Below are positions 3,813 to 35,448 of a DNA stretch of 38,678 nucleotides, piece by piece. The stretch covers positions 1 through 38,678 of the IMG/VR virus record IMGVR_UViG_3300035698_014932; one strand, 5' to 3'. The position numbers and the translations under genes are program-made. Each line of letters begins with the position of its first letter. Positions within the stretch are counted from its first letter, which is position 1. The notes beneath the pieces were generated by a model. That model was not told where the DNA came from and ran no database searches. It saw nothing but the letters and a program-made list of their open reading frames with translations. The DNA comes from a virus.

Positions 3813-4307
3813 ATGAATAATAGTAAAGTAACATTAGAAAAAAGAAAAGAGCTAAGAAAGTACTATAAAAAAACTATAGACCCAAATTCTTTTCCAGTAT
3901 ATATTAAAAAGATATGTAAGGATTGCTGAAAAGAAAAAGATTGTAAATGGAATAGTTCTTTTACAACTAAATGAGTTCCAGAATATAAAGCTAGATGTGA
4001 TAAATGTCACAATATATTCAAAAGAATAATAGCAAAATCTAGTGTATCAAAATGACTATGTAATATAAGAGTAAAGAAATATCAAAGACAAAATAAACAA
4101 TGGGCTGTAGATTATCTATGATGAAGATGTATTAAGTGTTGATATAATAAATGTTTAAGAGCATTAAATTTTCATCATAGAAATCCAGAAAAAAAACAAT
4201 ATACAATATGAGAAATATTAGACCATCATAAAAATAAATTAAAAAAAGAATTAAACAAGTGTGATTTATTATGTTCTAATTGCCATATGGAAGAACATAA
4301 TAAATAA
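3813..4307 (+). CDS. HNH endonuclease (free-standing homing type)
   Basis: A 164-residue protein with two CxxC pairs typical of zinc-stabilised HNH enzymes: KICKDCGKEKDC and KARCDKCH near the N-terminus, then GRCIKCGYNKC leading to the core LNFHHRNPEK, ending CDLLCSNCHMEEH. The HH, N and final H positions match the HNH nuclease fold (a beta-beta-alpha-metal site that nicks or cuts DNA). Its position between an rtcB remnant and an intact rtcB suggests a homing endonuclease that moved into an rtcB region. It overlaps the remnant frame by 19 bases and has a consensus promoter just upstream. Whether it is active and what site it cuts are unknown. Confidence 0.88.
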
Positions 4308-4332
4308 AGTTTTATTTACTAACTTATTTAAA

Positions 4333-5529
4333 ATGAATTTTACTTATAAAAATCCTGATTTTAAAGTTCCTATTAAGGCTTGGATTCCAAGAGAAGAATA
4401 TTTTAAGGATGAATGAATGGTAGAGCAGTGTGAAAATTTAGCTAAATTACCATTTGTTTATAAACATATAGTGTTAAATTGAGATTGACATCAAGGTTAT
4501 TGAATGCCTATATGATGAGTTATGGCAACTAAATGAGTTGTTTTACCTAATGCTGTAGGTGTTGATATTTGATGTTGAATGTGTGCTGTTAAAACAAATT
4601 TAACTGATATTGATACTGAAACACTTAAAAAGATAATGTGAAAAATTAGAGAGGCTGTACCCGTTTGATTTAATAAACATAAAGAAAAACAAGATGAAAT
4701 GTTAATGCCAACCCCTCCAGATGTAGACATAGATAATTTATTTAAGTTAATAATTGAAAAAGAATATAATAATGCAGCAAAATCAATTTGAACACTATGA
4801 TGATGAAACCATTTTATAGAAATACAAAAATGATCTGATTGATCTATATGGATAATGATTCATAGTTGAAGTAGAAATTTAGGACTTCAAGTAGCTAAAC
4901 ATTATAATAATTTAGCAAAAGAACTGAATAAAAAATGGTATAGTAATATAAATGAAAAGCATGATCTAGCATTTTTGCCATTAGATAGTGAAGAGTGAAA
5001 AAATTATATTCATGAAATGAATTATTGTGTAGAATATGCTTTAGCTAATAGAAAATTAATGATGGATAGAATTAAAGGGATATTTGAAATACAATATTCA
5101 ACTTGTATATTTGATGAAATTATAAACATAGCTCATAATTATGCAAGAATGGAAAACCATTTTTGAACTAATGTAATGATACATAGAAAAGGTGCTACAA
5201 GTTCTAAGGATTTAGAAATTTGAATAATACCATGAAGTCAATGAACTAAGTCATATATAGTAAAATGAAAAGGGAATAAAGATAGTTTCATGTCTTGTAG
5301 TCATTGAGCAGGTAGATTAATGAGTAGAAAAAAAGCAAAACTAAACTTAAATCTTGAAGAAGAAATTAAGAATCTAGATGATCAATGAATTATACACTGA
5401 ATAAGACATATAGATGATCTAGATGAAGCATCATGAGCCTATAAAGATATATCAGTTGTAATGGAAAACCAAAAAGATCTAGTAGATATACTTGTAGAAT
5501 TACAACCTATTTGAGTTATAAAATGATAA
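4333..5529 (+). CDS. rtcB: RtcB-family RNA ligase
   Basis: A complete 398-residue RtcB, the GTP- and Mn2+-dependent ligase that joins 2',3'-cyclic-phosphate or 3'-phosphate RNA ends to 5'-OH ends. Visible signatures: GDGHQGYGMPIGGV near residues 50-63, the metal motif VGVDIGCGMC with Asp78 and Cys81, GGGNHFIE with His160, HSGSRNLG with His177, IIPGSQGTKSYIV, and SHGAGR with the guanylylated His324. Most of these glycines are UGA. The N-terminus differs from the remnant at 3640. Phage RtcB is thought to repair tRNAs or mRNAs cut by host defence nucleases. The adjacent long RNA also makes it a candidate processing partner; that is inference. The HNH gene ends 25 bases upstream. Confidence 0.95.
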
Positions 5530-11258: not shown

Positions 11259-12398
11259 ATGAACGCATTAAAAAAGGCTATTATACAGTCAAAAAAATTA
11301 TTGGATTCTACTACTGACGTAAAAGCGTTAGAAAAAAAATTTGAGGAAGCAGAAAAATTACAAATGGAAAGAAAATCAAATGAGATAATGAATACATCTG
11401 CATCTGATTTTGGTACTGAACTAATTCCAGATAAGATTCAACTTGATCCATTGTTAGATCTAGTTCCAACTTATTCTACATTAATTAATCTATTGCCAGG
11501 ATCTCATTGAACTAATTTAGGTAAATCTATTGATCTACCAATTATATGAGAATCTGATATGTTTTCTTGAAATACTGAATGGTCAACTGGTGCACCTACT
11601 CCAGCAACTCCTGCTGATGAAGGTCCGCCTACTGATGAAATAACTATTACGCAAGGAATGTTTATTCTTAAAGTAGCAGTTTCAAAAAGAGAATTGAATT
11701 ATGCTCCAATGAATTTAGAAGCAATTATTAAAAATAGAATTAATATGAGTGCGGCGAGAACAATTGACGCAGTATTCTTAAATTGAGATTCGGCGGCGGC
11801 AAACAATGTAAATTATGATGGTTGAACACCTGCAACAACTCTTTACTACAAACAGTGTGATGGTTGAATCAGAAATACTGTTCTTGATGATACAAATACT
11901 AACAATGTATGAACATTTTCAGAGGCTGACTTAATTGCAACATTATGAAAATTAGCAAATTGATACCAAGCTGATCTATCTAATCTATTATGGATAATGC
12001 CAGCAAATGTTTATAATAAAGCAATGTTGTTTGATTCAGTTTTAACAATGGATAAGTTTTGACCTAACGCAACCATATCAAAATGAGTATTAGCAAAAGC
12101 ATTCTGAATTGATGTACTTGTAGCTAGAGATTGGCCAGCATTGGCACAAGCTACTTGATTAGTTTCAAGTACTACTTGAAGTAATACGGTTGGATCTTAT
12201 GGATTAATATACAAACCATCAATGCAATATGGTTTTGGACAAGCTTTAGAAATCGAACCTTACAAAGTTCCTGGTAGATGAATTGTATTATACGCAACTA
12301 TGGAATTTGGACAATGAATGGCTTATGACAAAGCAGGTCTTTGAAATACTGCGGCTCTTTGAATTAATGTAACAGTACAAACGGATAATATTATATAA
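11259..12398 (+). CDS. major capsid protein (HK97 fold)
   Basis: 379 residues. A short helical N-terminal region (about residues 1-45, ALEKKFEEAEKL) acts as the delta-like scaffold part. The body then starts with SASDFGTELIPDKI, and an HK97-like core follows with MFILKVAVSKRELN, ARTIDAVFLNG, LLWIMPANVYN and the final E-loop/spine-like AGLGNTAALGINV. Gly-rich positions are largely UGA. It lies directly behind the protease. The hairpin at 12407-12430, nine bases after the stop, probably sets capsid transcript level. Confidence 0.9.
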
Positions 12399-31039: not shown

Positions 31040-31627
31040 ATGAAATGAATTGAAAAATTATACAAAAAAGTTGAGGAAAAATTAAAAAAATGAGAGTTCA
31101 AAAAAATGAAAAAAGAAGAAATAAAATGCAAAATGAATTTATTTAAAATTGCATATAAATTAATGAAGGAAAAACATAGATGACAATTTAGGAAATCATG
31201 AGAAAGATATTTTGAACATTTAAGAGAAACTACAATAATATATTTAGACAAATTAGAAGATCCAAGAATTGATGGAATTATAATTTCATTAATGCACGAT
31301 TCTTTAGAAGATACAAATATTACAATTGAAAGTATTGAAAATATTTTTTGAAGATATATTTCTGATTCAGTTCAAAAATTGACAAAAGATGAAAACAAAC
31401 CGAGTTACTTATATTATAGAAGATTTAAAAAATGCGATAATATACAGATTAAGGTAAAATTAGCAGATAGAATACATAATTTATCTACCCTGAAGGGTTG
31501 TAATAATATAAAACATAAATATGAACAAACCAAAAAACACTTTCTTACAGTAGCAAAACAACACAGTAATCAAGGGTATAAAATAATTTTAAATGAACTT
31601 AATAAAATTAAATTTGAATTATTATAA
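31040..31627 (+). CDS. stand-alone HD hydrolase, MESH1/SpoT-like ((p)ppGpp hydrolase?)
   Basis: 195 residues. Helical leader, then the RelA/SpoT-type HD box: HRGQFRKSGERYFEH (His46, SGE), LMHDSLEDT (His86-Asp87, Glu90-Asp91), FGRYISDSVQKLTK, and KVKLADRIHNLSTL (Asp143, Arg144, Asn147). These are the metal-binding and guanine-nucleotide contacts of SpoT and the single-domain MESH1 enzymes that remove the 3'-pyrophosphate of ppGpp. There is no synthetase, TGS or ACT domain; the length equals a minimal hydrolase. Own promoter and strong terminator. It may lower the host stringent alarmone or neutralise a small-alarmone-synthetase toxin; the substrate is inferred. Confidence 0.88.
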
Positions 31628-31707
31628 TTAAAAATTATAGTTAGATAAACAAGTTTAAAAAAATTTTAGTTAGGTATTCTAAATGAAAAATACACTTGTT
31701 TCAATAG

Positions 31708-31739
31708 AGACGGAGAAAATCCGTCTTTATTTATTTATT
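31708..31739 (+). terminator. intrinsic terminator after HD hydrolase
   Basis: AGACGGA (31708-31714) and TCCGTCT (31720-31726) form a perfect 7-bp stem with a GAAAA loop followed by TTATTTATTTATT. An outer arm pair AAACAAG/CTTGTTT (about 31647 and 31696) lies around the preceding sequence. This is the clearest intrinsic terminator in the window. Confidence 0.88.
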
Positions 31740-32068: not shown

Positions 32069-32839
32069 ATGGAAAAACAAGTATGAGAAGTTACACAAAC
32101 TTCTATAATTCATAATGATAGATCTTTTATCAATATGGAAAAATTTAAGCAAATGCAAGAAATTGCAAATATTTATATTAAATCTGATGCGTTGCCAAAA
32201 ACTATAAAAAATCACGCACAACTAGTAATGATATTACAGGCAGGGAATGATTTATGATTAAATATATCTCAATCTATTAGTTGATTATATATTATTAATT
32301 GATTAATAACAGTATATTGAACTATTGCTATTATGCTTATTAAGAGATGAGGATACAAAATAGAATGGATAGAAAGTACTGCGAAAAGGGCAGAAGTAAA
32401 AGTTAGTAAATGATGAGAAGAATGTATTGAAACATATACTATTGCTGAAGCTGATTATGCTTGATTATTAAATGGTTGAATGTGAATTTGGAGAAAATAC
32501 CCAAGACAAATGTTACGTTACAAAGTACTATGATTTGTAAGAAAATTTTTTTGTCCTGAAGTTATGAGTGGCATGCAAATGGAAACGGAAATGGATGATA
32601 TACAGGATTGAGAAATTGAAACAATTAATAAGGTTGATAATTGAATTGAGAAACTAAAACAAAAGATTAATGATGTTAAGAATATTGAAGAATTGATGGA
32701 TTTAAAATGAGAAATTCAAGAATTAAATAACAAAGATATAATACCTTTTTTAGCAAAAAGAAAAGTAGAGTTGGAATATTGAGATTCAAAAGATGTTACA
32801 GTTGAAATATTACCTAACAAAAAAGAAGATGAAAAATAA
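32069..32839 (+). CDS. recT: RecT-family single-strand annealing protein
   Basis: 256 residues. The central part has the RecT pattern: SDALPKTIKNHAQLVMILQA leading to GNDLGLNISQSISGLYIING and VYGTIAIMLIKRGGYKIEW, then AEADYAGLLNGG, and WRKYPRQMLRYKVLGFVRKF with FCPEV. This is the canonical 'g.elGl.p.qSl..iyvi.Gk.......m.aLi...G', 'W.kyPr.ML..ra'. RecT anneals single-strand DNA for recombination and replication restart, together with an exonuclease; the next gene supplies a Cas4/RecB-like nuclease. They overlap by 11 bases. Confidence 0.88.
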
Positions 32840-34065: not shown

Positions 34066-34635
34066 ATGAATTTAGATAAAATAGCAGGAGCGTTGAATAA
34101 TGATACCAAATTATGTTCGAAATTTGGGGACAATTTAGAAAAGTTATGAGATTTTGACATAAAATTAAAAAGAGAATTACCCGAAAATACAAACGAATCT
34201 ATAGCTAAAATTAATCAGATCTTAGAATTTTGTAGATCCAAAGATAAATTTTTGTGATTAAAACCTGATTGATTAATTTCAATGCAAAGAGAATTAGTAA
34301 TTCATTTATGATTCTTAGCAGAAATAAAGGCTTTTTATTCTGTTGAATATTCAAGATCTTTAATATTTAGAAGGGTTACAAAAAGTGCTTTGAGTTTATC
34401 TTTGAGAAGGATATCAAAATCATTCGCAGAAGTGTTAGAAAATAGATTAACCAATGATGATGTTGCCAATATGTCAGATCTATCTACAATAGAAGAATTT
34501 GAAGAGGAGTTATATTGCAATTATGTGTCTGAATATTTGAAAAATCTAAGTAAAGCAGTATATGAATTAAGTAATATTATTAATAACAGACTTACAGAAT
34601 TAAGATACGAACGAAAAAATACAGAAAAATTATAA
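34066..34635 (+). CDS. hypothetical helical protein, 189 aa
   Basis: ATG 34066 to TAA 34633-34635. Almost entirely helical: ESIAKINQILEFCRSKDKFL, then MQRELVIHLGFLAEIKAFYS and RRVTKSALSLSLRRISKSF, followed by EVLENRLTNDDVANMSDL. No family is recognised. It falls between the recombination genes and the replication gene; the attenuator follows its stop. Confidence 0.6.
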
Positions 34636-34662: not shown

Positions 34663-34780
34663 TTGAATTTAAATATAATTCATTATAATTAAAATATAAT
34701 TATATTGGTAACTGGAAGAATTAGTATAATTATACTATTTAAGAAAAAGGGTTAAATTCTTCCAGGTTTAGCCCTTTTTT
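34663..34780 (+). promoter_or_regulatory. transcription attenuator with competing stems
   Basis: Two mutually exclusive structures. Antiterminator: TGGAAGAATT (34713-34722) pairs exactly with AATTCTTCCA (34755-34764). Terminator: AGGGTTAAA (34748-34756) pairs with TTTAGCCCT (34767-34775) and is followed by TTTTT. The 34755-34764 strand overlaps the terminator's 5' arm and loop. The palindrome AGTATAATTATACT (34723-34736) lies in the leader. A weak promoter (TTGAAT 34663, TATAAT 34684, 15-base spacer) may sit upstream. It would control expression of the replication protein at 34801. No leader peptide or riboswitch aptamer is recognised. Confidence 0.75.
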
Positions 34781-34800: not shown

Positions 34801-35448
34801 ATGAAAAGAGATAGTTTTATTTTTTATAGAAGTTTTTTTGAAGCTTCACTACCATTAAATGATAGTAATAAATTAGAACTTTTTAATTCAATTTGTAATT
34901 TTGCATTAAACCAAAACGAAACCGAAAATAAACCAATGGTTAAAGCTATGTTTAGCTTAATTAAACCACAGTTACAAGCAAACCAAAAGAGATACGAAAA
35001 TTGAAAAAAATGATGAAGACCACAAGAAAAAAAAACCAAAATGAAACCAAAATGAAACCAAAATGAAACCAAAATGAAACCTAATGTAAATGTTAATGAT
35101 AATGTTAATGTTAATGTAAATAAGAATAAAAAAATAAACAAAAAAGAAATCTTAAATACCTTTGAAGAATTTTGGAAAAAATACCCTAGAAAAATAAATA
35201 AAAAGAAATGTTTTATTTTATATATTAAATTAATCAAAGATCATAATATGATTATGAAATGATTAGATGATTATATTAAAAAACGGGAAAATGAATGAGT
35301 AGAAAAAATATATATACCACATGCGACCACATGGCTAAATTGAGAACGATGGAAAGATGATATTGAAAACGAAATTAAACTCACAGATAAAGAAATATGC
35401 GAAAAACAGAAAGAGGAATACTTAAAAAAACTTAATCTTACTTCTTAA
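34801..35448 (+). CDS. phage replication initiator/replisome organiser-like protein
   Basis: 215 residues. N-terminal part (SFIFYRSFFEASLPLNDSNK, ALNQNETENKPMVKAM, FSLIKPQLQANQKRYENG, KKGGRP) is the module found in phage replisome organisers of the DUF6291 kind; the 'NQKRYENGKKGGRP' tail is characteristic. A linker with an 11-base tandem repeat (35038-35081) gives KMKP/NQNETKMKP, followed by an Asn/Val repeat (VNVNDNVNVNVN). The C-terminus TFEEFWKKYPRKINKKKCF resembles the DnaD/helicase-loader-like 'FE.FW..YP.K..K' domain. It probably loads host helicase at the phage origin; no origin is located. Confidence 0.8.
35038..35081 (+). repeat. 11-bp tandem repeat inside the replication gene
   Basis: AAAATGAAACC occurs four times in a row. 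As 11 is not a multiple of three, each copy is read in another frame, and gain or loss of a unit would shift the reading frame. It could also act as an iteron-like binding site for the protein itself, since initiators often bind iterons in their own gene. Confidence 0.75.

Follow-up and report, generated by a model that had tools for sequence, protein, structure and literature searches.

The window analysed here is the whole stretch of 38,678 nucleotides, a 38.7-kb linear IMG/VR virus record whose large genes stay open only when TGA counts as a sense codon. In-frame TGA encodes glycine: the DUF6291 motif NGKKGGRP in the gene beginning at 34801 uses TGA for its glycine. The window is a code-25 phage. 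Code 25 is used by Absconditabacteria and Gracilibacteria and is common to some of their phages (PMC10746230), and assignment from the code alone suggests a host of the Absconditabacteria/Gracilibacteria type (PMC10746230). The plus strand holds the structural and packaging genes (terminase, portal and head) and also the early genes, a RecT-like gene, a PD-(D/E)XK exonuclease, the DUF6291 replication gene and a VRR nuclease. Elsewhere in the window lie a phage-encoded RtcB-like RNA ligase (4261–5529; phrog_1075, E = 5e-117), which adjoins an HNH endonuclease (3813–4307), an HD-domain phosphohydrolase (HD_4; 31040–31627), similar to (p)ppGpp hydrolases, that heads the early region, and the beginning of a protein carrying about 15 CxSC-type repeats (CDSCNSCNSCESC...) that is cut by the contig end (38337–38678).

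The gene at 34801–35448 matches PF19808 (DUF6291; E = 1e-18), phrog_270 (E = 7e-22) and other replication-initiation families, and by tblastn it matches annotated phage replication proteins. These matches bear out a preliminary description of this DNA, which had placed an antiterminator/terminator pair in front of a replication protein. Homologues in other phages align with the gene from residue 1, indicating that the start at 34801 is right. A literature search found no papers naming DUF6291. The features of the locus are as follows.

34695–34700, plus strand: candidate −10 box TATAAT, read from the sequence, which would place the RNA start near G34707
34712–34722, plus strand: antiterminator 5′ arm CTGGAAGAATT, one half of an exact 11-bp repeat, with a duplex to the terminator region of −16.8 kcal/mol (evaluated in the chance tests below)
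34723–34736, plus strand: small hairpin AGTATAATTATACT inside the antiterminator (RNAfold)
34743–34780, plus strand: intrinsic terminator, 16-bp stem 34743–34758/34765–34780 with loop CUUCCA (RNAfold and hairpin scan)
34755–34765, plus strand: antiterminator 3′ arm AATTCTTCCAG, which shares nucleotides with the stem and loop of the terminator
34801–35448, plus strand: gene with a DUF6291 N-terminus and a C-terminus like phage replication initiators or helicase loaders (code 25)

The ATG at 34801 lies 20 nt past the last T of the terminator. As this leaves no room for a promoter between terminator and gene, the mRNA must cross the terminator, and this spacing is the simplest argument for the terminator controlling the gene.

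The terminator is a stable hairpin with a U-run directly after it, encoded by six T at 34775–34780, in agreement with the competing terminator and T-run described earlier. Its stem includes G-U pairs and only three G-C pairs, making its strength uncertain; a standard scan with stricter loop and stem rules missed it and a second hairpin scan caught it. The antiterminator is an exact 11-bp inverted repeat with arms 32 nt apart, so that the alternative stem first given as an exact 10-bp pairing of TGGAAGAATT with AATTCTTCCA proves exact, correctly placed and one pair longer. Because its 3′ arm uses nucleotides of the terminator loop and inner stem, the upstream arm and part of the terminator form a stem that is mutually exclusive with the terminator itself. 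A pseudoknot containing both stems would require about 2 nt to span an 11-bp stem, which is sterically implausible, and the two stems consequently compete.

Folding of the growing RNA was begun at 34707, a start assumed from the weak −10 box. In this model the antiterminator emerges from 34762 and is the minimum-energy fold from 34764 to 34776 (−11 to −16.5 kcal/mol); from 34778, with the U-tract transcribed, it is displaced by the terminator (−17 to −19.5 kcal/mol). The full energies from RNA folding are −16.5 kcal/mol for the antiterminator versus −19.5 kcal/mol for the terminator, and the folded 91-nt region has a z-score of −2.8. The predicted succession, antiterminator first and terminator second, is the textbook attenuator order; the modelled energies do not give the default state, the antiterminator forming earlier and the terminator being more stable. 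The candidate −10 box is weak, has no good −35 and is one of several AT-rich options, and a consensus scan found no excess of promoters and no confidently identified leader promoter.

We next asked how readily such an arm arises by chance. With the terminator fixed and the upstream DNA shuffled, an arm of at least 11 bp appeared in 0–0.05% of cases and one of at least 10 bp in 0.05–0.3%. The word TGGAAGAATT is over-represented in the window's genome, and for this reason figures from real segments are fairer than shuffles: across real segments of the same genome the rate per 108 nt is about 0.14% for an arm of at least 11 bp, and 16 of 1,288 real 60-nt segments (about 1.2%) reach a duplex stability at least equal to the local one, a result that is only moderately strong. 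A chance origin of the upstream arm is unlikely, and the statistic alone is not overwhelming.

Relatives of the window were collected through the gene at 11259–12398, which gave 14 contigs at 47–54% protein identity and two weaker ones, all read whole or nearly whole. Their DUF6291-type genes have at most distant similarity to that of the window. No closer relatives were found through the genes at 34066–34635 and 32069–32839, none carried the window's leader at the DNA level, and the leader had no match in annotated phages. The exact inverted-repeat pattern occurred in four viral contigs, none related and only one (L054) hairpin-like. Relatives of the terminase were set aside: the 16 loci checked are without in-frame TGA and for the present purpose represent another lineage. 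In genome contigs the DUF6291 protein appeared only in Capnocytophaga, Erysipelotrichaceae and one proteobacterial MAG.

Seven leaders from the related code-25 phages (G004, G005, G007a, G007b, G008, G011 and G012, with G007a and G007b on one contig) share a promoter, an arm near the RNA start, a terminator and a DUF6291-type gene. The promoter is of the TTGACA/TATACT type, weaker in G007b, and is followed by a 130–173-nt leader, the intrinsic terminator, about 200 nt and then the gene. In six of these seven leaders the terminator 5′ arm finds its strongest, or nearly its strongest, partner in an arm about 8–28 nt into the leader. For G007a an automatic search favoured another segment (p = 0.17), yet the homologous arm still pairs at −16.8 kcal/mol, and across all seven the arms from this position pair at −15.4 to −19.7 kcal/mol. 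When arms were exchanged among the leaders in all 5,040 permutations, the natural pairing was the best (sum −126.3 versus a mean of −104.2), in a test that was not blind, the arms being hand-chosen from the same homologous position throughout. The pair after UUUC is compensatory, being U-A in G004 and G012, A-U in G005 and G-C in G008, and in the next pairs, too, G005 and G012 differ in both partners. A stem, P1 (ACAAGAU:AUCUUGU or ACAGAUA:UAUCUGU), keeps the arm in its loop. Both states co-vary in these leaders; for want of a close relative, the window's own stems stand outside this letter-by-letter comparison and covariation. At an E value of 1, Rfam returned only chance matches on the relatives.

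An eighth leader, G013, also has a terminator before a DUF6291-type gene and gives weaker support, because its upstream arm lies inside a strong competing hairpin. In a duplex test of 21 terminators of these phages, the window and G013 had the lowest p values for the 60 nt upstream (0.003 and 0.007), with the next at 0.09; over 130 nt these two were still lowest (0.007 and 0.01), followed by two others at 0.013 and 0.03. Most other terminators tested in these phages are without such an upstream arm, as is a second terminator of the window (31703–31731; p = 0.36–0.40). No recognisable attenuator was found in G003 and G014, where a terminator lies about 390 nt upstream of the gene.

Like the window, the relatives' leaders set an early antiterminator arm against a terminator in front of a DUF6291-type gene. 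They differ from it in being longer (about 130–173 nt), in the conserved stem P1 round the arm and in carrying another hairpin, of 26 bp, ahead of the gene; their terminator lies about 200 nt upstream of the gene rather than 20, and the upstream gene is a different one. A sequence-only model of their leader, R1, finds no match in the window. What the window and its relatives have in common is the design and the gene behind the switch, with unrelated letters.

Together, these observations favour a transcription attenuator, acting in cis, that controls how much replication initiator is made, a reading to which we assign a probability of roughly 0.7; it is probably a real and hitherto undescribed brake on phage replication. 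The reading draws on mutually exclusive stems of similar energy, an antiterminator that forms first, an arm rarer than chance, a gene 20 nt past the T-run and co-varying arms before a homologous gene in related phages. RNA polymerase would arrive from upstream or from a leader promoter and transcribe CUGGAAGAAUU first; as AAUUCUUCCAG emerged it would pair with CUGGAAGAAUU to form the antiterminator, holding the terminator loop and inner stem, and polymerase would continue into 34801. Should the antiterminator be prevented or unzipped before polymerase has cleared the six U, the 16-bp terminator, as the more stable fold, would form instead and the RNA would end at about 34780. We infer that in vivo some transcripts stop at the terminator and others pass it, and that some factor tips the balance between antiterminator and terminator. 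Our best guess for the trigger is a phage protein or an RNA pairing with the 5′ arm, and a purely kinetic, unregulated throttle is possible.

The simplest competing explanation is a plain, unregulated and possibly bidirectional terminator that closes the operon ending at 34635, with an arm present by chance and the gene living on leaky read-through. An A-run before the stem and a T-run after it could let the hairpin act both ways, AAGAATT-type words are common in the genome, and real segments match the duplex energy in about 1.2% of cases. We nevertheless consider this explanation unlikely, given that the gene begins only 20 nt past the T-run, that the arm is rare in shuffles and such arms are absent at most other terminators of these phages, and that related phages show this design, with co-varying arms, in front of the homologous gene. 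That co-variation, which follows RNA pairing and includes G-U pairs, also speaks against a DNA element, in which the inverted repeats would serve as an operator or replication origin bound in double-stranded form by the initiator or a repressor. Phage origins often adjoin replication-initiator genes, as this locus does, and two copies of the palindrome TATAATTATA lie within 40 bp. However, TATAATTATA has six exact copies in the window and is thus no clear site-specific operator; together with close variants it is mildly over-represented in the genome (33 versus 23 expected), and the 3′ arm falls exactly in the terminator loop, a placement that a DNA site does not need. Such an element seems quite improbable.

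Least probable of all is a classical signal-sensing leader, either a riboswitch for a small molecule or an attenuator driven by leader-peptide translation. A 16-codon frame from TTG 34705 to TAA 34755 does span the 5′ arm and end in the terminator stem, but it has a TTG start without a Shine–Dalgarno sequence, and the relatives have no conserved leader frame. Rfam 15 gave no match at gathering score in the window and none meaningful at E = 10 nearby, and only 32 nt separate the arms. The preliminary description had offered translation in the leader, protein binding or a small molecule as the control signal. Leader translation becomes less likely, with just the one non-conserved TTG frame to support it, and so does a small molecule; binding by a protein or RNA stays in contention. 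With no Rfam match, a small loop and no conserved leader peptide, RNA or protein binding and an unregulated throttle are the options that remain for the attenuator.

In BglG/SacY-type RAT control, a hairpin overlapping the terminator decides read-through; RAT is a short bulged hairpin of sugar operons that is bound by a PTS-controlled protein. The window differs in having a plain 11-bp stem round a 32-nt loop, and no BglG/SacY-type protein was seen among the proteins scanned. In plasmids pT181 and pAMbeta1, attenuation of the rep leader by competing terminator and anti-terminating stems limits the initiator. Similarly, RepR of pIP501 is limited by antisense-RNA-driven attenuation of the rep leader, so that there, as would be the case in the window, the leader of the initiator mRNA holds competing terminator and anti-terminating stems and premature termination keeps initiator synthesis in check (PMC4981023). 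In these plasmids, by contrast, an antisense RNA (RNAIII, 136 nt) drives termination, and their sequences are unrelated to the window. No convincing antisense promoter or countertranscript was found in the window, the minus-strand promoter-like sites opposite the leader being weak and no commoner than chance. In satellite phage P4 immunity (CI RNA), the phage silences its replication genes through RNA-driven premature termination in an untranslated leader (PMC4825925). A processed leader RNA pairs with seqA/seqC in P4, whereas the window has a self-contained intrinsic terminator. The resemblance to pIP501 and P4 would thus be one of outline, and we claim membership in neither system.

Gene regulation in the phages of CPR bacteria is almost unexplored, and an attenuator that recurs in front of their replication initiator would point to the step that such phages control. 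It would offer a compact switch of 77 nt and an example of one regulatory layout built from unrelated sequences. DUF6291 proteins, too, would gain a functional setting, as initiators or loaders in phage replication. A broader and rather doubtful conjecture is that RNA-based control of replication or lysogeny is common in phages of glycine-recoding CPR bacteria, with attenuator leaders before the DUF6291-type initiator switched by a trans-acting phage RNA that pairs with the antiterminator arm, which in the relatives sits in the loop of stem P1. This would be a form of immunity or copy control like that of P4 or pIP501 but of separate origin and with unrelated sequences.

Several further elements were observed around DUF6291-type genes. 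In L030 and L046 (G003 and G014), a tRNA-like 3′ half, GGTTCAAATCCCACCACACC, followed by a terminator lies about 390–500 nt before the gene; ARAGORN found no tRNA there, and the element is possibly an attachment-site remnant. The relatives' 26-bp hairpin (L033, L035, L036, L037, L040, L042 and L045; −29 to −41 kcal/mol) lies about 100–200 nt before the gene and is followed by UUUUAAUUUG, or by CUUUAAUUUG in L073. Its loop, CCGCAAGC, is complementary to the upstream GCUUGCGG (GCACGCAAGC/GCUUGCGUGC in others; broken in G012), and an invariant ATTACTTATGC motif follows the first terminator. The hairpin has no Rfam match and may represent either another switch or an origin of replication. In G012 (L045/L058) the 29-nt loop region of this second hairpin, CCATTGGATGCTTGCGGTCATCCAACAGC, is the exact reverse complement of GCTGTTGGATGACCGCAAGCATCCAATGG in G005, a difference that reads as a small inversion within a long inverted repeat. 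Finally, L005 and L006 carry at about 4630–4735 a 14-bp inverted repeat whose arms, GAGGGTCGAAGTTC and GAACTTCGACCCTC, are separated by about 90 nt; it lies towards the beginning of an operon with a DUF6291 gene, in a phage to which the standard code seems to apply.
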